Below are positions 24,508 through 47,958 of a DNA stretch of 64,000 nucleotides, one piece after another; the first letter of the stretch is position 1; every line of letters starts with the position of its first letter. Position numbers and translations under genes: made by a program. Below the pieces are notes generated by a model that saw only the letters and a list, made by a program, of their open reading frames with translations, had not been told where the DNA came from and made no database searches. Source of the stretch: Hyphomicrobiales bacterium (GTDB taxonomy: Bacteria > Pseudomonadota > Alphaproteobacteria > Rhizobiales > Xanthobacteraceae); NCBI GenBank assembly GCA_003135415.1, contig PLBP01000032.1, positions 1 to 64,000 of the forward strand. Direction: 5' to 3'.

Positions 24508-24783
24508 TCACTGACGGTATTGCTGCAGCCGCGTGGTGCGAAGGCCGGCGAGGCCGTGCCGCTCGATCGAGTGCTGCCAGGCAAGAAACTCTTCCGTGGT
24601 CAGCGTGTAGCGATTGCAGGCATCCTCAAGCGACAAGAGGCCGCCCCGCACGGCGGCCACCACTTCGGCCTTGCGCCGAATGACCCAGCGCCGGGTTTCC
24701 GGCGGGGGCAGATCGGCGATCGTCAGGGGGCTACCATCGGGCCCGATGACGTACTTGGCTCTCGGGCGTTGTGCTTCGGTCAT
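24508..24783 (-). CDS. sciP: CtrA inhibitor SciP (DUF1153)
   Basis: YVIGPDGSPLTIADLPPPETRRWVIRRKAEVVAAVRGGLLSLEDACNRYTLTTEEFLAWQHSIERHGLAGLRTTRLQQYR. Confidence 0.93.
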   Translation of the reverse strand: MTEAQRPRAKYVIGPDGSPLTIADLPPPETRRWVIRRKAEVVAAVRGGLLSLEDACNRYTLTTEEFLAWQHSIERHGLAGLRTTRLQQYRQ

Positions 24784-24943
24784 CCTACGCTCACTGAACT
24801 CAAACACGACTTGAACAAGCCGCGAAGCTAAGGCCGAGGCATGAAAATTTCACTAAAAGCTTGTTTCCAAAGGCTTAATGAGTCCTGGCGGTTTTTCGCC
24901 GCTGGGACCGAAAACCCCTGCTATTCGGCGCTTATGAACCCGG

Positions 24944-25210
24944 CTATTGGATCGCGCTCACCTGCGAAATCGTCAGATAGCTCGAACCCACCTACAGCAA
25001 GGGCTGCGAGCCGCTGAGATCGACGCCGGTGACCGTGCCGGTGAATTGCATGGAGACGCTGACGGGCTGCGCTGCCGCGTCCTGCGCCGCGAGCATGTTC
25101 GAAAAGGAATCGTCCCCCTTGTCCTTGCGCTCGGGAGCGGACGCAGGCGCGGGAAGGAGATCGGGCGAATTGATGCTGGCGACGCTCTGCACGGAAAAAT
25201 CCCTTAACAA
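24944..25210 (-). pseudogene. flagellar remnant: probable fliK 5' end fused to flgD 3' end, interrupted by TAG at 24992-24994
   Basis: Reading through the TAG gives ...MQFTGTVTGVDLSGSQPLL*VGSSYLTISQVSAIQ*, resembling the C-terminus of alphaproteobacterial FlgD; N-terminus GDDSFSNMLAAQD is FliK-like. Confidence 0.55.
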
Positions 25211-27535: not shown

Positions 27536-28345
27536 ATGTCAAAAACAGCATGGAAAATCTTATTCGCCGCAACGCTCGTCATGGCGGCGAACGTGGCGCA
27601 CGCGGCGACCTGCAACGACCCGTCGGGATTTCCCGCCTGGATCGAGGACGTAAAACGCGAAGCAGCTTCGCAGGGCATTTCACCGCGCGGCATCGCGGCA
27701 CTGAACGGCGTGACCTACGACCCGGCCGTTGTTTCGAGCGACCGGCGGCAGGGCGCGTTTCGCCAAAGCTTCGAGCAATTTTCCGGCCGTATGGTGCCGC
27801 CGCGGCTTGCGCGCGGCGCGCAGATGATGAAACGCCAGGCGGCTTTGCTTTCCCGCATCGAGCGCGATTACGGTGTCTCGGCCGCCGTCATCGTCGCCAT
27901 CTGGGGACTTGAAACCGATTTCGGCGCCGACAATGGGCGCTTTCAAACGATCCGCGCCTTGGCGACGCTGGCTTACGACTGCCGCCGCCCGGATAAATTC
28001 CGCCCGGAATTATTCGATGCGCTCCGGATCGTCGCGCGCGGCGACATGGCCGCGGCAGGGATGCGCGGGGCCTGGGCGGGTGAAATCGGTCAGACGCAAT
28101 TTATGCCTTCGTCGTATTTGAAATTCGCCGTCGATTACGACGGCGATGGCCGGCGCGATCTTGTCCGCAGCGTTCCCGACGTGCTCGCCTCCACCGCCAA
28201 TTACTTGCGCGGCTATGGATGGCAGCGCGGAGCGCCCTATGGCCCGGGCACGAGGAACTTCGAAGTCATCCTTGCCTGGAATAAAGCGCAAGTCTACGCG
28301 AAGACAATTGCGTACTTTGCGGAGCGTCTGGAGAGCGCGCGATAG
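27536..28345 (+). CDS. lytic murein transglycosylase (MltB-like)
   Basis: GLETDFGADNGRFQTIRALATLAYDCRR; GEIGQTQFMPSSYLKFAVDYDGDGRRDL. Confidence 0.92.
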   Translation: MSKTAWKILFAATLVMAANVAHAATCNDPSGFPAWIEDVKREAASQGISPRGIAALNGVTYDPAVVSSDRRQGAFRQSFEQFSGRMVPPRLARGAQMMKRQAALLSRIERDYGVSAAVIVAIWGLETDFGADNGRFQTIRALATLAYDCRRPDKFRPELFDALRIVARGDMAAAGMRGAWAGEIGQTQFMPSSYLKFAVDYDGDGRRDLVRSVPDVLASTANYLRGYGWQRGAPYGPGTRNFEVILAWNKAQVYAKTIAYFAERLESAR

Positions 28346-29870: not shown

Positions 29871-31097
29871 TCATCCTCCGCCGTGCATCCGCGCCAGCAA
29901 CTCCACCGTCGGCCACGAATCCGCGGGGAAGCCGAGCTTCATTTGCGCGGCCTTCACCGCCGTCCGCGTCGAGAGCCCGAGCTTGCCGTCGATCTCGCCG
30001 GTGTAGCCATAGCGCCGCAGCAATTGCTGCAACTCCTTCGCCTGCTCGTAGGACAGCGCCACCGGCGTGCCATTGCCTTTGTGCATCGGCGCAGCACCTG
30101 CGAGCCTGGTGGCGTAATAGGCTGCGGTCAGCGAATAGATCAGCGACTGATTCCACTTAAGATAGACCTGGAAATTCTCGTAGGCGAGGAACGCCGGGCC
30201 GAACCGTCCCATCGGCAGCACGAGCGAGGCGGGCAATTCATCCGCTTGCAGCGGGCGGCCGTCGGGAAGCGTCACGCCCCAACCCGCCCATTGCGAGCGC
30301 GGATGCTGGATCGTCAGGTCCGCCTGATCCCACGCTAAATTGGCGGGCACGCGCACGTTGGTGAGCCACGGCTCGCCGCGCCGCCAGCCGAGGCTCTCGA
30401 TATAATTCGCGGTCGAGCCGATGACGTCGGGCACGCTTCTAATCAGGTTGCGGTGACCATCGCCGTCATAGTCGACCGCCCATTTGTTGTATTCGGTCGG
30501 CATCATCTGGGTCTGGCCGATTTCGCCGGCCCACGAGCCGATCATTTCCTCCGGCCGAAGGTCGCCGTGGTCGATCAGTTGCAGCGCCGACAACAACTGG
30601 CCGCGGAACATTTCCGCGCGGCGGCAGTCATAGGCGAGCGAAGTGAGTGCCACGAGCGATTTTTCCTTGCCGGAATTGGCGCCGAAATCGCTCTCTAGCC
30701 CCCAGAAGGCGGTAATCACCGCCGCCGGCACGCCGAACTGCTGGTTCGCGCGCCCGAACACCGAGCCATATTGCTGGATCAGCTGGCCGCCCTTCTGGAT
30801 ACGATAGGCCGCGACCATGCGGTTGGAGAATTCGATGAAGGTCTGGTTGAAGACGCGCTGGCCGCGGTCGATGTTGACGATGCGCTGGTCGTAGACCATC
30901 TGGGGTGCTGCCGCCGCGAGTGCCCGCTGCGAAACGCCGGCACCCGCCGCCTCGCGCCTGAACTCGTCGAGCCAACGATCGAAGCTCGTGCTGGTGCGGC
31001 AACTCACGGCAAATGCCGGACCCGCCGAAAGCGACGCGACGAGAACCGTCGCCATTACCGCAAACGAAAGTTTAAACCGCCGCATCATGTTGCCCAT
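29871..31097 (-). CDS. lytic murein transglycosylase with C-terminal peptidoglycan-binding domain
   Basis: GLESDFGANSGKEKSLVALTSLAYDCRR; GEIGQTQMMPTEYNKWAVDYDGDG; C-terminal LQQLLRRYGYTGEIDGKLGLSTRTAVKAAQ. Confidence 0.94.
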   Translation of the reverse strand: MGNMMRRFKLSFAVMATVLVASLSAGPAFAVSCRTSTSFDRWLDEFRREAAGAGVSQRALAAAAPQMVYDQRIVNIDRGQRVFNQTFIEFSNRMVAAYRIQKGGQLIQQYGSVFGRANQQFGVPAAVITAFWGLESDFGANSGKEKSLVALTSLAYDCRRAEMFRGQLLSALQLIDHGDLRPEEMIGSWAGEIGQTQMMPTEYNKWAVDYDGDGHRNLIRSVPDVIGSTANYIESLGWRRGEPWLTNVRVPANLAWDQADLTIQHPRSQWAGWGVTLPDGRPLQADELPASLVLPMGRFGPAFLAYENFQVYLKWNQSLIYSLTAAYYATRLAGAAPMHKGNGTPVALSYEQAKELQQLLRRYGYTGEIDGKLGLSTRTAVKAAQMKLGFPADSWPTVELLARMHGGG

Positions 31098-37608: not shown

Positions 37609-38076
37609 GTGAACGGTCTCATCGAGTTCGTCAAAACGCTGGGGGCGGCGCGCGGCGCGGCCATGGGCGCGGCCACCGCGATCCTGATCGGCTTCTTCGC
37701 CTTCGTCATCATGCACTTCTCGCAACCGACGATGGCGCCGCTCTTCACCGAGCTCACACTCGACGATTCCGGGCGCATCGTGAAGGAGCTCGAGACGCAA
37801 GGAATTCCCTACGAGCTGCGCGGCGACGGCACGACGGTGTTCGTGCCGAAGACGCAGGTGACAAAGCTGCGCATGCGGCTTACCGAAACCGGGCTGCCGC
37901 GCGGCGGATCCGTCGGCTACGAGATTTTCGACAAGTCCGACGCGATCGAATGGGCCGATGGCGGCGTCACGCGCGAGCACGCCGCGATCGAAGCGCGCAT
38001 CAACGAAGCGGTGGCGCGCTATCTCGGCAGCAGCACGAAATCTTTGAGCCTTCCCGATCTGGAGAGTGAAAAATGA
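37609..38076 (+). pseudogene. flagellar remnant: fliF N-terminal ~115 codons fused in frame to a fliH-like C-terminus
   Basis: VNGLIEFVKTLGAARGAAMGAATAILIGFFAFVIM...MAPLFTELTLDDSGRIVKELETQGIPYELRGDGTTVFVPKTQVTKLRMRLTETGLPRGGSVGYEIFDKSDA is FliF; IEWADGGVTREHAAIEARINEAVARYLG resembles the FliH C-terminus. Confidence 0.75.
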
Positions 38077-38381
38077 GCGACCAACCGACGACCAATAAAC
38101 AGACGGACAAAACTCCGCCGCTCCCCGATCTCGAGCGCGACGTCGACATGACGGCGCGCGTTGCCGAGCAGCTCGCCTCCTCGCATATCGGCCGCACGGT
38201 CGCCCAGGTCGAGCGCGATCTCATCCTCGACACGCTCAAGCATTGCCTCGGCAACCGGACGCACGCCGCGAGCATTCTCGGCATCTCGATCCGGACGCTC
38301 CGCAATAAGCTCAACGAATACATGACCGAGGGCTATGCCGTGCCCTCGCCGGCTTCGGGCGTGGCCTCTTCGGCCGCCTGA
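38073..38381 (+). pseudogene. flagellar remnant: probable fliN start fused to the flbD C-terminal Fis-type HTH
   Basis: IGRTVAQVERDLILDTLKHCLGNRTHAASILGISIRTLRNKLNEY is the C-terminal HTH of FlbD-type sigma-54 activators; no receiver or AAA+ domain; starts 4 bp inside the previous ORF. Confidence 0.72.
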
Positions 38382-38593: not shown

Positions 38594-39062
38594 ATGACCG
38601 ACATCACCGCAGGAGAAAAGACCGCGCCCGGTATAAGGTTGCCTGGCTTTGCCGATTTGGCGACGCTGATGCGCCGCGGCGACCTCGCGCTTGCGGTCGC
38701 TGTGATGATGATCCTGGTCGTCCTAGTGCCAGATCTGCGCAATGAATCTCTCGCCGCACGGCTATCTCGCGCTGATTTCGCTTTCGCCCCGCTGGGAGCA
38801 GACTTTCGCCGAATCGATGGTCGGCGAAGGCGACGCCCGCACCCTCGCCATGCAGCCCTCGAAGCTTTCCGAATTCGTCAGCCTCGTGCGCGAGCGCTTC
38901 TAGGAGGCCGGGCGCCAGTCCGAATCGCCGGTCTTGCTCGCGAGCGCCGCGGCCCGGCCCTTCGTGCGCTCGATCGTGGAGCGCTTCCGGCCGCAGACTA
39001 CGTTATTATCGCAAAGCGAGATTCACCCGCGCATCCGGCTGAAGATGATCGGCAGCGTCTGA
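38594..39062 (+). pseudogene. flhA: flagellar remnant: flhA N-terminus joined out of frame to the flhA C-terminus, plus TAG at 38901-38903
   Basis: MTDITAGEKTAPGIRLPGFADLATLMRRGDLALAVAVMMILVVL in one frame; QICAMNLSPHGYLALISLSPRWEQTFAESMVGEGDARTLAMQPSKLSEFVSLVRERF*EAGRQSESPVLLASAAARPFVRSIVERFRPQTTLLSQSEIHPRIRLKMIGSV* in another. Confidence 0.85.
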
Positions 39063-39118: not shown

Positions 39119-39724
39119 ATGCCCGGCCCCCTCAAGGACGAATTTACGTTGGTGCCGCCGGGACAAATCTCGGCGGTGGTCACGCATCTTGAAATGCGCA
39201 CGCAACTCCCACTCCGGCGCGACCACGTGAAGCAGGGGGAATACGCGCTCCGCCGCCAGCCGGCGCCCGAGCTCGGCTGGTATCGCGAGCTCTACCGCCG
39301 CGTCGGCCAGGATTGGCTGTGGTTCTCCCGCCTCGCGATGGCCGATGCGGCGCTTATCGCCATTACCCACGACGAGGCCGTCGAGGTGCATGCGCTTCGC
39401 CACCGCGGCCGCGACGAAGGGATCCTTGAAATTGATTTCCGCCGCTTCCCCGATGTCGAGATCGCGTTTCTCGGCGTCGTTCCTTCGCTGCTCGGCAAGG
39501 GGGCGGGGCGCTATTTGATGAACCGCGCGCTCGAGATCGCCTGGGGCCGCACGCCGAAGCGGGTGACGATCCATACCTGCACGCTCGATCACCCGCGCGC
39601 GCTCGAATTCTACCGCAAGACCGGCTTCGTGCCCTATTCGCGCTCGGTCGAGATCGCCGACGACCCGCGCCTGCACGGCATCCTGCCGCGCACGGCTGCG
39701 CCGCACGTCCCCATCATCGAATGA
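39119..39724 (+). CDS. GNAT family N-acetyltransferase
   Basis: VEIAFLGVVPSLLGKGAGRYLMNRALEIAW; TLDHPRALEFYRKTGFVPYSR. Confidence 0.9.
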   Translation: MPGPLKDEFTLVPPGQISAVVTHLEMRTQLPLRRDHVKQGEYALRRQPAPELGWYRELYRRVGQDWLWFSRLAMADAALIAITHDEAVEVHALRHRGRDEGILEIDFRRFPDVEIAFLGVVPSLLGKGAGRYLMNRALEIAWGRTPKRVTIHTCTLDHPRALEFYRKTGFVPYSRSVEIADDPRLHGILPRTAAPHVPIIE

Positions 39725-39737
39725 TCGCTGATTAAGT

Positions 39738-40145
39738 TCAGACCCGTACGCGGTGAGCGCCGATATGGTCGAGCTCTGCCTGCTCGATCGCGGCGTCCTC
39801 GGCACGCTCGCGCTGATGGTCGCGCTCTTCCAGGATCTCGACCTTCTTCAACTCCTCGAACGCCTCGGCCAATGCGGCACGGGCGTCTTCGAGTTGAACC
39901 TTGAGGTCGTTGGCCGAGCGGGCGAGGTTGTCGCGGCGCTGGATCGCGGCCTTAGCATAGGTCGGGTAGGCGAAGTGGCCGGGATCGGTGATGCCGGCGC
40001 GTTCTTGCTCGGTCTTGATTTCACGCTCGAGGTCGGCGGTCATCCGCTCGAATTCGGCGATCATCGCCTCGATCTGGGCGACTTGGCGGCGCTTTTCGTC
40101 GACCTGGAAGCGCTTCAGGCGGATCAGGGTTTCACGCGATTTCAT
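39738..40145 (-). CDS. fliJ: flagellar export protein FliJ, apparently full length
   Basis: MKSRETLIRLKRFQVDEKRRQVAQIEAMIAEFERMTADLEREIKTEQERAGITDPGHFAYPTYAKAAIQRRDNL...; coiled coil next to a fliI remnant. Confidence 0.8.
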   Translation of the reverse strand: MKSRETLIRLKRFQVDEKRRQVAQIEAMIAEFERMTADLEREIKTEQERAGITDPGHFAYPTYAKAAIQRRDNLARSANDLKVQLEDARAALAEAFEELKKVEILEERDHQRERAEDAAIEQAELDHIGAHRVRV

Positions 40146-40169: not shown

Positions 40170-40528
40170 TTAGGATTCAGTTGCCCCGGCGCCGACTATC
40201 TGCGCCAGGCGGCTATATCCTTCGCCTAGATTGGTTGCCTCTTCCTTACCTTGGGCAAGAAAAGCCTCCAGGGCCGGAAATAGGCCGATTGCCTCGTCCG
40301 TCTCGGCATTGGTCCCCTGCCGATAGGCCCCGAGCCGGATCAGCTCCTCCATATCCCCGTAGATCGACAACAGCCGCTTGGCGCGGACAACGGCCGGCCA
40401 ATATTGCGGGTCGCAGGCCTTCGGCATGGTGCGGGAGATCGACTTCAAGACATTAATGGCCGGGTAGCGACTCGCCCATAAATCTCGGGTCCGTCGAGTT
40501 CCGCGATCTGTTCAGCCAAGGCTTTCAT
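40170..40528 (-). pseudogene. fliI: flagellar remnant: fliI start (~21 codons) joined out of frame to the fliI C-terminus (~108 codons)
   Basis: Frame 1 MKALAEQIAELDGPEIYGRVA...; frame 2 RYPAINVLKSISRTMPKACDPQYWPAVVRAKRLLSIYGDMEELIRLGAYRQGTNAETDEAIGLFPALEAFLAQGKEEATNLGEGYSRL; 359 nt, not a multiple of three. Confidence 0.88.
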
Positions 40529-40867: not shown

Positions 40868-41569
40868 ATGCGAGTGCTTCTGATTGAGGACGATGGCGCG
40901 ACGGCGAAGAGCATCGAATTGATGCTCAAGTCAGAGAGCTTCAACGTCTACGTTACCGATCTCGGCGAAGAGGGTGTCGATCTCGGTAAACTTTACGATT
41001 ACGACATCATTCTTCTCGACCTCAACCTCCCCGACATGTCGGGATACGAGGTGCTGCGGTCGCTCAGGATCGCCAAGATCAAGACCCCGATCCTGATTCT
41101 CTCCGGCCTCGCCGGCATCGAAGACAAGGTAAAGGGTCTCGGCTTCGGCGCCGACGACTATATGACCAAGCCCTTCCACAAGGACGAACTCGTCGCGCGC
41201 ATCCATGCGATCGTGCGGCGCTCGAAGGGCCATGCGCAGTCGGTCATCAACACGGGCGATCTCGTCGTCAATCTCGATACCAAGACGGTCGAAGTGAACG
41301 GCGCGCGCGTGCATCTGACCGGCAAGGAATATCAGATGCTGGAGCTCTTATCGCTCCGCAAAGGCACCACGCTCACCAAGGAGATGTTCCTCAACCATCT
41401 CTATGGCGGCATGGACGAGCCGGAGCTGAAAATCATCGACGTCTTCATCTGCAAGCTGCGCAAGAAACTCGCCAACGCCTCGAACGGCAAGAACTACATC
41501 GAGACCGTCTGGGGGCGCGGCTATGTGCTGCGCGAGCCGATCGAAAGCGAAACGCGCATTTCCGCCTGA
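40868..41569 (+). CDS. ctrA: cell-cycle response regulator CtrA
   Basis: [67 protein letters not shown]...[68 protein letters not shown]. Confidence 0.97.
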
Positions 41570-41652: not shown

Positions 41653-42504
41653 TCAGCGTGCGGTGGCGGCGAGCTTCGGCTTCTGCGGCTGTGGCTCCGC
41701 CCGTATATAAAGTCCGCGTTTTTCGGCGAGCGGCACGAAAATGTTGGTAAGGCCGACCACCGTTTCAGCCGCTCCCATCAGCAGAAACCCGTCCGGCGCG
41801 AGCTGGCGGTAAATCCGCTCAAGCACGCCGGTCTTTGTCGCCTGGTCGAAATAGATCAGTACGTTGCGGCAAAACACGACGTCGAAGGTTCCGAGCGCTG
41901 CAAAATCCGCGAGCAGATTGAGCTGGCGGAATTGGACCATCTTGCGGATCGCTTCCGAAAGCCGCCATTGCTCGCCGACCTGCTCGAAATGCTGCATCAG
42001 CATCTGAATCGGCAGGCCGCGTTGCACCTCGAACTGGCTGTAAATGCCGGCACGCGCCTTCTCCAGCACGTCGTGCGAAATGTCGGTCGCGAGAATTTCA
42101 ATCCGCCAGCCGGAAAATTTCTCCTGCACGCTCTTTAGCATCATGGCGAGCGAGTAGGGTTCCTGGCCGGTCGAGGCGGCCGCGCACCAGATGCGGAAGC
42201 GTTTCGTATGTGCGCGCGCGCTCAACAGCGCGGGAAGCACGGTGTCGCGGAAACGGTCGAACGGAATCTTGTCGCGGAAGAAGAACGATTCGTTGATCGT
42301 CATCGCCTCGGTGATTTCCGCCTTGAGCGGCTCCGAATCCGGCTCCCGCAAGCGCCGGACGAGATCGGTGATCGAAGCGCAGCTAGCGCGGCGCGCCACC
42401 GGCATCAGGCGGCTTTCGATCAAATACTGCTTTTCCGGCGCCAGCACCAAGCCGGAGCGCTCGCGCAGGAGCTTGCGCAAATATTCGTAATCGAGCGGCG
42501 TCAC
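41653..42504 (-). CDS. cheR: chemotaxis protein methyltransferase CheR
   Basis: TPLDYEYLRKLLRERSGLVL; RIWCAAASTGQEPYSLAMML; FDVVFCRNVLIYFD; GTG start overlapping the cheB stop. Confidence 0.93.
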   Translation of the reverse strand: MTPLDYEYLRKLLRERSGLVLAPEKQYLIESRLMPVARRASCASITDLVRRLREPDSEPLKAEITEAMTINESFFFRDKIPFDRFRDTVLPALLSARAHTKRFRIWCAAASTGQEPYSLAMMLKSVQEKFSGWRIEILATDISHDVLEKARAGIYSQFEVQRGLPIQMLMQHFEQVGEQWRLSEAIRKMVQFRQLNLLADFAALGTFDVVFCRNVLIYFDQATKTGVLERIYRQLAPDGFLLMGAAETVVGLTNIFVPLAEKRGLYIRAEPQPQKPKLAATAR

Positions 42505-43628
42505 GAGCGATCCCCGTTGACCAGGCGCACGACCCTGGACGCGATCTCCTCGAGCGGAAGCACCGCGGAGCATTGTCCGCTATGCGCGGCCGAACCCGGC
42601 ATGCCCCACACCACACTCGACGCTTCGTCCTGCGCGATGACGCTGCCGCCGCCCGCGGCGATGTCGCGCGCGCCCTCGGTGCCGTCCGTGCCCATGCCCG
42701 TGAGCACGACCGCGAGCAGCGCCGGGCCGAACGCCGTCGCCGCCGAGTGAAACAGCGGATCGACCGCGGGCTTGCAAAAATGCACGGGCGCATCGTCGCC
42801 GATCACGATCGCGGTTGATTCCGCCTGCCGCTCGAGCCGCATGTGCTTGCCGCCCGGCGCCACGTAAAGCGTCCCGGGTTTGATCGTCTCGCCGTGTACG
42901 CCCTCATGCGCGGGCCGATTGGCGGCGCGAGCGAGGTGTTCGGCGAGGATGGCGGTGAAGGTCGGCGGCATGTGCTGCGTGATCACGATCGGCAAGCGAG
43001 CAAGCACGGGCGATAGCCCGCGAATCAGCACTTGCAGCGCTTGCGGACCGCCGGTGGAACTGCCAATCGCGAGCACGCGGGGAGGAACGGGGGAAAAGGG
43101 CCGCAGCGAAATCGCTTGCGCCCGTGGATCAATCGCCTCGCCGCGGAGCCCTTTCGAATGCAACGGTGCGGAGCGCGCGCGGCGGCCGAGATGCTTGATC
43201 TTCTCGACGATCTCGTGGCGGAACGAGAGCGTGAACATGATTTCCCGGCTCGTCTCGGGCTTGGTCACGTAATCGATGGCGCCCAATGAGAGCGCCTTCA
43301 AGCTCACCTCGGCGTTACGGCGGGTGAGCGTCGAGGCCATGATCACGACGAGATCGGACTTGCGCGCCAACAGAAGCGGGAGCGCGGAAAGTCCGTCGAG
43401 CTCGGGCATGTCGATGTCGAGCACGACGATGTCGGGCTTGAGTTTCAGCACGTTATCGACGGCCTCGCGGCCGTTGCGGAACGTACCGACGACCTCGATG
43501 CCGGATTCTTCCGAAAGCCATCGCGACATCAGGCCGCGCACGACCACCGCATCGTCAACGATCATGACGCGAATGGCGTGCCCCGCTGTACTTTTGGGGG
43601 CGATCTGCGGCAAGGACATGATGCTCAA
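42501..43628 (-). CDS. cheB: chemotaxis protein-glutamate methylesterase CheB
   Basis: Receiver domain (DIVVLDIDMPELDGLSALPLLLA) plus methylesterase (AIGSSTGGPQALQVLIRGL, ITQHMPPTFTAILAEHLAR, LTGMGTDG). Confidence 0.95.
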   Translation of the reverse strand: MSIMSLPQIAPKSTAGHAIRVMIVDDAVVVRGLMSRWLSEESGIEVVGTFRNGREAVDNVLKLKPDIVVLDIDMPELDGLSALPLLLARKSDLVVIMASTLTRRNAEVSLKALSLGAIDYVTKPETSREIMFTLSFRHEIVEKIKHLGRRARSAPLHSKGLRGEAIDPRAQAISLRPFSPVPPRVLAIGSSTGGPQALQVLIRGLSPVLARLPIVITQHMPPTFTAILAEHLARAANRPAHEGVHGETIKPGTLYVAPGGKHMRLERQAESTAIVIGDDAPVHFCKPAVDPLFHSAATAFGPALLAVVLTGMGTDGTEGARDIAAGGGSVIAQDEASSVVWGMPGSAAHSGQCSAVLPLEEIASRVVRLVNGDRS

Positions 43629-43694
43629 CCGGAACTCAACTCACCGAACAAGAGACGTGGAACGAGCCTTCCGCCGAAAGGCGGAAGGGTGTCT

Positions 43695-44060
43695 TCAGAT
43701 CAGGCCGACTTCCTGGAACTTCGCTTCGACGATTTCCTTGTCGAACGGCTTCATGATGTATTCGTCGGCGCCGGCATGCATCGCACGCGCGATATGCGCG
43801 AGGTCGTTTTCGGTGGTGCAGAAGACGACCTTCGGCTTGTCGCCGTGCGGCATGGCGCGGAGCGCGCGGAGGAATTCGTAGCCGTCCATCACCGGCATGT
43901 TCCAATCCAGGAGAATCGCCTCGGGCATCTCCTTGGTGCACGATTCGAGCGCCTGACGGCCGTCGGCCGCTTCTACGATGGCAAAGCCGAATCCTTCGAG
44001 GATTCGCCGAGCCACCTTTCGAATTACGCTCGAATCGTCGATTACAAGACAACGTTTCAT
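43695..44060 (-). CDS. cheY: chemotaxis response regulator CheY
   Basis: CLVIDDSSVIRKVARRIL; ILLDWNMPVMDGYEFLRALR; IMKPFDKE. Confidence 0.92.
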   Translation of the reverse strand: MKRCLVIDDSSVIRKVARRILEGFGFAIVEAADGRQALESCTKEMPEAILLDWNMPVMDGYEFLRALRAMPHGDKPKVVFCTTENDLAHIARAMHAGADEYIMKPFDKEIVEAKFQEVGLI

Positions 44061-44075
44061 TGTCGGGGTCTCCTT

Positions 44076-44528
44076 TTACGCAGCAAGCTCTGGGGTTTTC
44101 AGTTCGAGTACGCGTTCGACGTCGAGGACGACCATCAAGCGGTCGTCGAGCTGGACGACGCCTTCGGCCACGCGCGACCAGCGCGGGTCGAGATTCACCG
44201 GATTGGGGTCGCGGTTCGCGGCCGGAATTTTTAGCACCTCGCCGACGCTGTCGATGAGGAGGCCGTAGGATTCGCCGCGGTGCTCGATGCCGACCGCCAT
44301 GTTGCCCCTGCCCTCTTCGCGGGCCGGAAGATCGAGGCGACGGCGCATGTCGATCGTCGTCACCACGCGCCCGCGCAAGTTCAGAATGCCGGCGATCTCG
44401 GGCGGCGCCAACGGCACGCGTGTCAAGCGATCGACCATGAATACGTCGTGCACGCGCGAAATCGGCAGGCCGAACAATTGATCGGCGATCAATACGGTCA
44501 CGAATTCGATTTCAGGGGCGGTTTGCAT
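44076..44528 (-). CDS. cheW: chemotaxis coupling protein CheW
   Basis: FGLPISRVHDVFMVDRLTRVPLAPPEIAGILNLRGRVVTTIDMRRRL. Confidence 0.94.
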   Translation of the reverse strand: MQTAPEIEFVTVLIADQLFGLPISRVHDVFMVDRLTRVPLAPPEIAGILNLRGRVVTTIDMRRRLDLPAREEGRGNMAVGIEHRGESYGLLIDSVGEVLKIPAANRDPNPVNLDPRWSRVAEGVVQLDDRLMVVLDVERVLELKTPELAA

Positions 44529-47164
44529 CAGGCGGCCTTGCTGATTTCGAACGGCGCATCCTTGAGCGCGGCGATCAGTCCCTGGCGGTCGAACTTGGCG
44601 ACGAAGGCGCGGAAGCCCGCTCGGAGACCGCGCTCGAGCATCGCGGGCGAGGAGTGGGACGTGAGCGCGATGATCGGCACATGGCTCATGCGCGGGTCCG
44701 CGCGCAGCGCCTCGGCAAGCTCGAAACCGCCGATCTCCGGCATCTCGATGTCGCTCACGATCACGTCGAAGCCGTCCGCCGTCTCGGCCAGCGCAAGCGC
44801 TTCCTGGCCGTCCGCGGCCGTGGTCACGTCGTAGCCCGCCGCCTTCAGCACCGGCGTCAGCATATTGCGGAAGAAGGCCGAGTCGTCGACGAAGAGGAGA
44901 CGGCGCTTGCGCGCATCCGCGTTCATTTCCTTGCGCTGGAACCAGTCTTCGTGGGCAAGCGGGAGAAAATGGGCGACGTCGATGATTTCGGTCGCCTGTC
45001 CCCTGACGATGGCCGAGCCAAGAATTCCCGGCGTGGCGCTTCCGACCTCGATATTGAGGCGGTCCTCAACGATGTCCACGATCTCGTCGACGACGATGCC
45101 CATGGAGCGGCCGGCGTCGATGAAGACGAGAAGCGGCTGCATGCCTTCGGTCCTGATCCGCATGCCGTCATTGACCGGCACCAGCGGCATCAGCGTGTCG
45201 CGGTATTGGATCAGCGGGCGGCCGCTCGACCGCTGAATCTCTTTGGCGTCGATTTCCTCGAGCCGGGTAATCAGCGAGAGCGGAACGGCCTTCGGCTCGC
45301 CATCCCCCGCCCGGAAGACCAGAAGCGAAATCGGGCGATCGGTTTCCTCGACGCGCGCGTTGCTCTTGTGTTCTTGCTCCGCGATTTCGGAGCTGTCGAG
45401 CCGGCCGCCGAGCGCGCCCGCGATCCCGTTCGGATCGAGAATCAAGATTACGGCGCCGTCTCCGAGAATCGTATTGCCCGAGAACATCGCAATGTCGCGC
45501 AGCTTCGAAGCCATCGGCTTCACCACGATTTCCTCGGTATGGAACACGCCGTCGACGACGACGCCCATGGTGCGGTTTCCGGTCTGCATCACCACGATGA
45601 AAGCGCCGTCCTCGGCTCCCCCGCCGGCAAGCCGCAACAGCGAACCGAGATGCACGAGCGGTAACAGCTTGTTGCGAAGCCGCAGCACCGGCGCGTCCTT
45701 CACGCGCTCGATGCGGTGCTCCGAATTCGCGCGCACGCGCACAAGCTCCAGGACCGAGACCTGCGGGATCGCGAAGCGCTCTTTCGCCGCTTCCACGATC
45801 AAGGCCGGCACGATCGCAAGCGTGAGCGGAATCTTGATCGTGAAAGTGGTGCCGCGACCTTGCACGGATTTCAGTCCGACGCTGCCGCCGATCTGATCGA
45901 TATTGGTCTTCACCACGTCCATGCCGACCCCGCGGCCGGAGACGTTCGTCACCGTCGTCGCGGTCGAGAAGCCCGGCGCGAAAATGAATTTCTGAATTTG
46001 CGCTTCCGTGAGCTTGTCGTTCGCCGAGATCAATCCCATGCGGATCGCCTTGGCGCGGATGCGTTCGATATTGAGGCCGCGGCCGTCGTCGGCGATTGCG
46101 ATAATGATGTAGCCGCCTTCGTGACGGGCCGAAAGCCTGAGCGTTCCTTTTTCCCGCTTGCCGGCGGCCCGGCGTTCGTCGGGCATCTCGATGCCGTGAT
46201 CCGCGGAATTGCGCACCATGTGCGTGAGCGGATCCTTGATCACTTCGAGCACTTGGCGGTCGAGCTCGGTCTCGGCGCCGTGCATTTCGAGTTCGATCTC
46301 CTTGCCGAGTTCGTTGGCGAGATCGCGCACGATGCGCGGCAGCTTCGACCAGGCATTGCCGATCGGCTGCATGCGGGTCTTGATCACGCCTTCCTGCAAT
46401 TCGGCGGTGACGTTGGAAAGGCGCTGCAGCGGCGCCTTGAATTCGCTTTCCTGGCTGCGGCGCACGATTTCCAACAGCTGGTTGCGTGTCAGCACCAGCT
46501 CCGAGACCATCGTCATCAGGCGCTCGAGCGTCTCGACCTGCACGCGCAGCGTCTGCGCCTTCGACGTCGCTTCGCGCTGTTCTTCTTCGCGCCGTATCGC
46601 CGCGCGCCGGTCGGCGTCCGAGCGGCGCTCGCCCTCGGCCTCAAGAGGCTGCATGAACGTGTCCGCATCCGGACCCGGCGTCTCGCGAAACGCGCGTTCA
46701 AGGTCGTCGAGCGAAACCTCGCCCGGACGCAGCGGCCGCTCCAGAACCTGATGCACCAGCGTACCGACGCTTTGGGTTTGCTCGACCGGCGCGATCGCGG
46801 AGAGGCGCACGAGCTCCTTGATGAGATCTTCGTCGCCGCCTTCGGGCTCGGCCTGATTGGTTTCGAGTGCGGCGAGAATTTCCTTGATCCGGTCGATACT
46901 CGCGAGCACCACCGTCACGGCTTCGCTGGTGACCGGCAGGCCGTCGCGGAAACGGCCCATGAGGGTTTCAGCCGCGTGCGCGAGCGCTTCCAGCCGCGGC
47001 AGGTCGAGGAAGCCACAGGTGCCTTTGATCGTGTGGACGAGCCGGAAGACGTTCCCGAGAATTTCGGCGTTGTTCGGCTCTTGCTCGAAGCGCACCAATT
47101 CGACATCGACGACATCGAGGCTCTCGCTCGTCTCGGTGAGGAACTCGCGCAAAAGATCGTCCAT
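44528..47164 (-). CDS. cheA: hybrid chemotaxis histidine kinase CheA (Hpt, dimer/ATPase, two CheW-like domains, receiver)
   Basis: VHTIKGTCGFLDLPRLEALAHAAETL; LEVIKDPLTHMVRNSADHGIE; two CheW-like regions; C-terminal LLFVDDSAFFRNML...VIVSDIEMPEIGGFELAEALR. Confidence 0.95.
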   Translation of the reverse strand: MDDLLREFLTETSESLDVVDVELVRFEQEPNNAEILGNVFRLVHTIKGTCGFLDLPRLEALAHAAETLMGRFRDGLPVTSEAVTVVLASIDRIKEILAALETNQAEPEGGDEDLIKELVRLSAIAPVEQTQSVGTLVHQVLERPLRPGEVSLDDLERAFRETPGPDADTFMQPLEAEGERRSDADRRAAIRREEEQREATSKAQTLRVQVETLERLMTMVSELVLTRNQLLEIVRRSQESEFKAPLQRLSNVTAELQEGVIKTRMQPIGNAWSKLPRIVRDLANELGKEIELEMHGAETELDRQVLEVIKDPLTHMVRNSADHGIEMPDERRAAGKREKGTLRLSARHEGGYIIIAIADDGRGLNIERIRAKAIRMGLISANDKLTEAQIQKFIFAPGFSTATTVTNVSGRGVGMDVVKTNIDQIGGSVGLKSVQGRGTTFTIKIPLTLAIVPALIVEAAKERFAIPQVSVLELVRVRANSEHRIERVKDAPVLRLRNKLLPLVHLGSLLRLAGGGAEDGAFIVVMQTGNRTMGVVVDGVFHTEEIVVKPMASKLRDIAMFSGNTILGDGAVILILDPNGIAGALGGRLDSSEIAEQEHKSNARVEETDRPISLLVFRAGDGEPKAVPLSLITRLEEIDAKEIQRSSGRPLIQYRDTLMPLVPVNDGMRIRTEGMQPLLVFIDAGRSMGIVVDEIVDIVEDRLNIEVGSATPGILGSAIVRGQATEIIDVAHFLPLAHEDWFQRKEMNADARKRRLLFVDDSAFFRNMLTPVLKAAGYDVTTAADGQEALALAETADGFDVIVSDIEMPEIGGFELAEALRADPRMSHVPIIALTSHSSPAMLERGLRAGFRAFVAKFDRQGLIAALKDAPFEISKAA

Positions 47165-47319
47165 GGTGGGCCCGCTGGATGCGAATACGTAGGCGCAAAG
47201 GCGACGCCGGCCCCTTCCGGAAGCCGCGTCCTGTCGGGGCGGACTTTCGGCCCTGAGCGGTTAAATTTGCTTGAAAATGCAGGAATGCCCCCACCCGGAT
47301 ACCTCTCCCAGCAGGGATC

Positions 47320-47958
47320 TCAGAGCGTCGCGGTGAGGACGATTCCTTGCCCTTCGGCGGCTATCGACACCTTGAGAGCGGCGGCGCGGGCCAACAGCCC
47401 CGCGTAATAGGGCTGGATGACGTGAGCATCGAGGGTTTCCGCCGGTGTACCCGCCAGGAGCGCTTCGGCCTTGGGCGGAATGCGGGCATTGGTGCCCTCG
47501 GCCCGCAGGCGAAATCCCATGGCTTCTCCCTCCCCAACCGGATCGACGGTGAGCATGCCGCCGCGCGGAATGGCGGACGAGGCGATCATCAGGAGGTTGA
47601 GCAGGAGCTTCACCCGGTTCTTCGGCAAGAGGACCCGCGGCAGGTTCCAGACGAGTTTCAGACGATCGTCCTCGAGAAAGCCCTTGGCGACTTCGGCGGC
47701 GTCGCCGAGATCGATTTGCGCGCCGGCCGAGCCTGCAGCACCAAAGGCAAGGCGGGCGAATTGCAGCCGCGCGGAGGCCTGGATCGCACTCTTGCGAATG
47801 AGGTCGAGCGCAACCTCCTTCATTTTCTCGTCCTTCTCGTCGGCGAGCACTTCGAGGCCATTGACGATGGCTCCGACCGGGCTGATCACGTCATGACAAA
47901 TGCGCGAGCAGACGAGTGCGACGAGATCGAGGGCTTCTAGCGTGACGGGCTGGCTCAT
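47320..47958 (-). CDS. chpT: histidine phosphotransferase ChpT
   Basis: LDLVALVCSRICHDVISPVGAIVNGLEVLADE H-box and degenerate ATPase domain. Confidence 0.9.
   Translation of the reverse strand: MSQPVTLEALDLVALVCSRICHDVISPVGAIVNGLEVLADEKDEKMKEVALDLIRKSAIQASARLQFARLAFGAAGSAGAQIDLGDAAEVAKGFLEDDRLKLVWNLPRVLLPKNRVKLLLNLLMIASSAIPRGGMLTVDPVGEGEAMGFRLRAEGTNARIPPKAEALLAGTPAETLDAHVIQPYYAGLLARAAALKVSIAAEGQGIVLTATL

Follow-up and report, generated by a model that had tools for sequence, protein, structure and literature searches.

Flagellar-class chemotaxis systems are assumed to serve the motor. Why, then, does a genome whose flagellar genes lie in ruins keep a full set of chemotaxis (che) genes beside them? 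The window analyzed here, the whole 64,000-nucleotide stretch (G000:C27:1-64000), belongs to the 3.0-Mb genome of a soil-type alphaproteobacterium (G000) that is 95% complete in 41 contigs, and gene inventories of G000 were made by family-by-family searches of the genome. Judging from the named relatives of its CheA, G000 falls among Xanthobacteraceae-like Hyphomicrobiales. On the minus strand of the window, chpT, cheA, cheW, cheY, cheB, and cheR follow one another in that order, and ctrA then follows on the plus strand (Table 1). A flagellated relative, G003, has the same order, running ctrA-fliI-fliJ-...-flhA-flbD-fliN-fliH-fliG-fliF-DUF1153-flgD-fliK-mnmA with every gene intact, so the ancestral state of the locus is known. 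Flagellar clusters are also intact in G015, a flagellated sister species in the same genus as G000.

Flagellar loss and the state of the che genes in G000

Flagella were lost piecemeal in G000, through internal deletions. All seven flagellar genes of the fliF-to-fliI stretch are deleted or cut, fliJ excepted, and no fliK was found near the flgD remnant, unlike the order in G003. Decay is just as advanced at the second flagellar locus, on contig C31: only the C-terminal part of flhB is left, and it contains a stop; fliP shows a deletion and a shift; fliX is broken; and flgE is truncated, frameshifted, and interrupted by a stop. Intact on C31 are flgB, fliO, and cckA, which encodes a cell-cycle kinase. 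The initial annotation had made its argument depend on flagella being lost genome-wide, and a second flagellar set was sought in G000 and not found. Searches with FliG_C, Flg_bb_rod, flagellin, and FliMN_C recovered no FliG, FliM, or flagellin anywhere in the genome, the only matches being flagellar stubs, a weak MgtE-type FliG_C match, and an isolated FliN-like gene next to lipB. The flagellar loss is therefore real, and G000 has no FliM/FliG motor to serve as the CheY target of a functional flagellar chemotaxis system. It is very improbable that flagella are present in the organism and missing only through an incomplete or misassembled MAG. The assembly is indeed short of complete, and one of its MCP genes is broken by an N gap, but two loci still carry what is left of the orthologous clusters, including stops and gene fusions, in addition to the absence of FliG, FliM, and flagellin. 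Two other features of the window are an intact gene for a GNAT acetyltransferase (39119-39724), which separates flhA from fliJ and is found at the same place in G015 and G047, and a pair of SLT_2/MltB-like lytic transglycosylase paralogues near each other (27536-28345 and 29871-31097).

Table 1. Chemotaxis, flagellar, and CtrA-pathway features of the window
Feature	Position	Strand	Evidence
DUF1153 protein, CtrA-pathway (SciP-type) neighbour, intact	24508..24807	-	PF06627 E=5.6e-42; 85% to G003
flgD remnant (stub)	24935..25114	-	
fliF codons 1-113 running into fliH codons 187-226; intervening fliG deleted	37609..38073	+	YscJ_FliF
fliN 5' end running into flbD 3' end (HTH_8)	38073..38381	+	
flhA remnant: codons 1-45 then 597-706, junction frameshifted, in-frame stop	38594..39059	+	
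fliJ-family gene, intact, divergent from ctrA	39738..40145	-	Pfam FliJ PF02050 E=2e-10
fliI remnant: out-of-frame junction of codons 1-21 with codons 343-441	40173..40528	-	
ctrA, master cell-cycle regulator	40868..41569	+	Response_reg + Trans_reg_C; 97% to G015
cheR, MCP methyltransferase, 283 aa, GTG start by homology	41653..42504	-	Pfam CheR/CheR_N; 69% to G015
cheB, MCP methylesterase with receiver domain	42501..43628	-	Pfam CheB_methylest + Response_reg; 66% to G015
cheY, 121 aa	43695..44060	-	95.9% identity to flagellated sister G015; dN/dS 0.034
cheW coupling protein	44076..44528	-	Pfam CheW
cheA hybrid kinase with Hpt, dimer, ATPase, two CheW, and C-terminal receiver domains	44528..47164	-	
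chpT, phosphotransferase of CckA-ChpT-CtrA relay; neighbour of Che	47320..47958	-	Pfam HPTransfase

The initial annotation described cheA-W-Y-B-R (41653-47164) as full length with motifs intact, and reading frames, Pfam domains, and conserved residues bear this out. The domains are those expected (CheR_N and CheR; REC and CheB_methylest; REC; CheW; and, in CheA, Hpt, H-kinase_dim, HATPase_c, two CheW domains, and REC), the kinase blocks of CheA are conserved, and CheY retains D13, D57, N59, T87, and K109. The start of cheR was corrected from homology to 42504, which gives the 283-aa product. The chpT gene had been counted within the che set and was misassigned: it belongs to the cell-cycle relay, outside Che, and is still present in genomes stripped of all che and flagellar genes.

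A genome search found only one che cluster in G000. The F5 chemosensory class of the Wuichet-Zhulin scheme has the order cheA-cheW...cheB-cheR, an additional CheW domain in CheA, and cognate 38H chemoreceptors (PMC10746217). In G000 the order is A-W-Y-B-R and CheA contains two CheW stretches; judged by gene order and CheA domains under these published criteria, the set is assigned to class F5, and it shares synteny and identity with the flagellar che loci of relatives. It differs from the class description in that its CheA also has a terminal receiver domain and in that G000 has no flagellum to control. The system is of a known kind in an unusual state.

Selection on che and its fate across the family

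The 5.4 kb of che sequence contains no lesion, against about 6 point lesions in about 4.9 kb of flagellar remnants, which have also undergone multi-gene deletions; this contrast has a rough p of 0.01 under equal rates, with similar ages assumed. Branch lengths point the same way: the fliI and flhA fragments are longer on the G000 side than on the G015 side (.158/.045 and.194/.099, G000/G015), while cheA (.215/.346), cheW (.263/.636), and cheR (.237/.335) are shorter and cheB is equal (.354/.332). Relative to G015, dN/dS is 0.26-0.28 for cheA, cheW, cheB, and cheR, like that of hemA (0.27), and for cheY it is like that of ctrA (0.035); the G000 branch includes time before flagellar loss, and part of this purifying signal predates the loss. 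Because there are no lesions, no acceleration of the branch, and housekeeping-like dN/dS values, che looks to have been kept through selection and not to be merely awaiting decay.

The FliM-binding surface of CheY, a check that the initial annotation had proposed, is conserved: of the five sites at which CheY differs from that of G015, none lies in the alpha4-beta5-alpha5 docking face, which is identical. A CheY identity of 96% at a CheA identity of 72% between G000 and G015 is out of line with other genome pairs, and all five changes map to the G000 side of the tree, CheY being no slower in G000 than in G015. Exchange of cheY between the two genomes was considered and ruled out, as its synonymous divergence (dS 0.75) matches that of its neighbours; the dS of 0.75-1 for the che genes of this pair indicates no recent exchange.

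We compared these observations with a family set of 101 genomes, in which 12 besides G000 had no FliG match. Ten are confidently flagella-less (G000, G004, G021, G027, G030, G033, G041, G047, G061, and G084); G048 was left out of the counts as too incomplete. Half of the ten retain che in the chpT-ctrA locus (G000, G027, G030, G033, and G047), and the other five have lost it. The set is complete in G000 and G030, cheA of G047 contains a TAG, and G027 and G033 (L138, L140) keep cheA, cheW, cheY, and cheR with cheB missing. In a tree of neighbouring genes, some nodes of which are weakly supported, the che keepers are interleaved with flagellated genomes, so that their flagella losses look like separate events in five lineages. 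Two genomes with fliG present, G014 and G093, have a lone cheY beside chpT (L205:16933-17319 and L206:14071-14436) and have lost cheAWBR.

We consider it fairly probable that the F5 system was the flagellar navigator of the ancestor and that purifying selection has continued to act on it since the flagellum was lost by deletion. We count against this reading the loss of che in the five other flagella-less genomes, the position of all five CheY changes on the G000 side, and the missing cheB and the cheA stop in other keepers, which fit slow decay. These last would also be expected in a decay series if flagellar loss were recent and che a doomed leftover that has so far escaped being hit, and the intact flgB and fliO agree with that account. 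However, the deletion or truncation of all seven fliF-fliI flagellar genes except fliJ, against none of the five che genes, argues the other way, as do the acceleration of the flagellar fragments with che unaccelerated and the MCP genes on other contigs, which look intact too. Recent loss alone leaves the lesion contrast (six against none, p ~ 0.01 at equal rates) and the repeated retention of che unexplained, and we regard it as unlikely, though far from negligible.

Che might instead be shielded by its position between the essential genes chpT and ctrA, where deletions could be lethal or transcripts common. On this account che would go with the island where it sits in a separate flagellar island (G013 and G059), and the flagella-less genomes G041, G061, and G084, which are without che, are indeed placed by the tree outside its main group. 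Yet fliI, directly between ctrA and fliJ, and flhB, which adjoins cckA, were both deleted; in G004 che has been cleanly excised from between chpT and ctrA; and cheAWBR is gone from this very locus in G014 and G093. Physical protection accounts for neither the intact reading frames nor the constraint on CheY, and we judge it improbable.

The fliJ gene beside ctrA

The initial annotation had missed the intact fliJ among its wrecked flagellar neighbours. A ctrA-linked fliJ orthologue is present in 100 of the 101 family genomes, in 87 of 87 of those that are at least 90% complete, and in every flagella-less one. In G004, G021, G041, G061, and G084 the locus has neither che nor fli genes, yet ctrA and fliJ are still adjacent; FliJ is expected to be lost along with flagella, and within the family it was not. 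Outside the family, most genomes without FliG are also without a ctrA-linked fliJ, and class-wide the gene mostly follows flagella; G145, G326, and G420 have ctrA-fliJ pairs without fliI. Seven further genomes (G099, G020, G185, G260, G229, G408, and G267) were rejected as flagella-less keepers of FliJ when other flagellar genes were seen by locus inspection or flagellin search.

Two genomes separate this gene from the flagellar cluster. G059 owes its flagella to a divergent cluster at another chromosomal site, with fliJ beside ctrA ~1.4 Mb away, and in G013 a six-frame fliJ match adjoins ctrA, ~0.6 Mb from the flagellar cluster; each cluster has its own small FliJ-like gene, as judged from no more than its size, its place, and the look of its sequence. 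The N-terminal 100 residues of FliJ are conserved in flagella-less genomes, and the C terminus drifts. A literature search returned no relevant paper on a ctrA-linked fliJ without flagella. The ctrA-linked FliJ probably has a non-flagellar role, which makes the gene a concrete candidate for a mis-named one and points into the CtrA cell-cycle neighbourhood. A joint reading would be that, in Xanthobacteraceae and certain further alphaproteobacteria, the ctrA-divergent FliJ is more than a flagellar export protein and has a conserved function independent of the flagellum, probably in a CtrA/cell-cycle or envelope context, and that F5 Che had an ancestral second CheY output that became its sole output after flagellar loss; our confidence in this combination is evenly divided.

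Receptors, candidate outputs, and known systems

The window holds no mcp, as initially annotated; a genome search nevertheless found six MCP genes elsewhere in G000. They comprise Cache3-HAMP, PAS, and protoglobin types, a similar 459-aa soluble receptor, a PilZ-bearing receptor, and one split by an assembly gap, and three of the six have clear G015 orthologues. The protoglobin-coupled MCP and the similar soluble MCP (L143:8121-9503 and L144:8789-10165) have no close orthologue among the seven MCPs of G015. The soluble MCP with the PilZ domain (L145:8364-10235, G000:C33) is at 65% to its G015 orthologue and might connect c-di-GMP to the Che array. An apparent frameshift in the MCP on C11 proved to be an artefact: the assembly has an N gap there, and the flank of the gap is duplicated (L146:7600-7630, G000:C11).

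If the F5 system has been retained by selection, MCPs of the Cache, PAS, protoglobin, and PilZ types would set CheA activity, CheA would phosphorylate CheY and its own receiver domain, and phosphorylated CheY would act on a non-motor partner through the ancestral alpha4-beta5-alpha5 face, the ancestral pathway presumably having already had a second output. A non-motor output is our best inference for G000. The initial annotation had proposed an alternative output after flagellar loss, such as type IV pili. Comparative evidence supports the general idea, while pili in the PilT/PilB sense did not stand: the genome search found no PilT/PilB-like ATPase, which marks the type IV pilus (TFP) chemosensory class, and only two CpaF-type ATPases, in two Tad pilus loci. 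Type IVa pili are thus an unlikely output. As a guess, and a tentative one, the likeliest output would be attachment to surfaces or Tad pili, with input from c-di-GMP, because both exist in G000 and because CheA1 and the CheYs of Azospirillum brasilense affect metabolism, attachment, and biofilm beyond chemotaxis (PMC8561660, PMC8100600), a precedent for a second output in such pathways. Metabolic regulation is another candidate. An orphan 86-aa FliN-like (FliMN_C) gene (L226:7891-8151, G000:C4) adjoins a lipB-like gene; this neighbour is shared by G015, the surroundings in G003 are similar, and the FliN-like gene is absent from G027 and G033. Its product is a candidate CheY partner. Motor-less genomes with a selected sensor-kinase-CheY core would serve as natural experiments in which a non-motor output could be found without confounding by motility.

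Several known systems resemble that of G000 in part. The Azospirillum proteins are likewise alphaproteobacterial chemotaxis proteins, but Azospirillum does have flagella and possesses Che4 as a second pathway, whereas G000 has its single cluster. The non-flagellar chemosensory pathways (the ACF and type IV pilus classes) share with G000 a Che phosphorelay without a flagellum; they are separate classes, while the G000 system is flagellar-class and still at its ancestral place. Caulobacteraceae that lost motility offer a convergent flagellar loss in an alphaproteobacterial lineage, but there the flagellar and chemotaxis genes were lost together (PMC12700997), and in G000 che was kept. Lysobacter enzymogenes, also non-flagellated with partial retention, has kept part of the flagellar gene set in new roles (PMC9927559); what it retains is the export apparatus (FlhA, FlhB, and FliI), which in G000 is destroyed.
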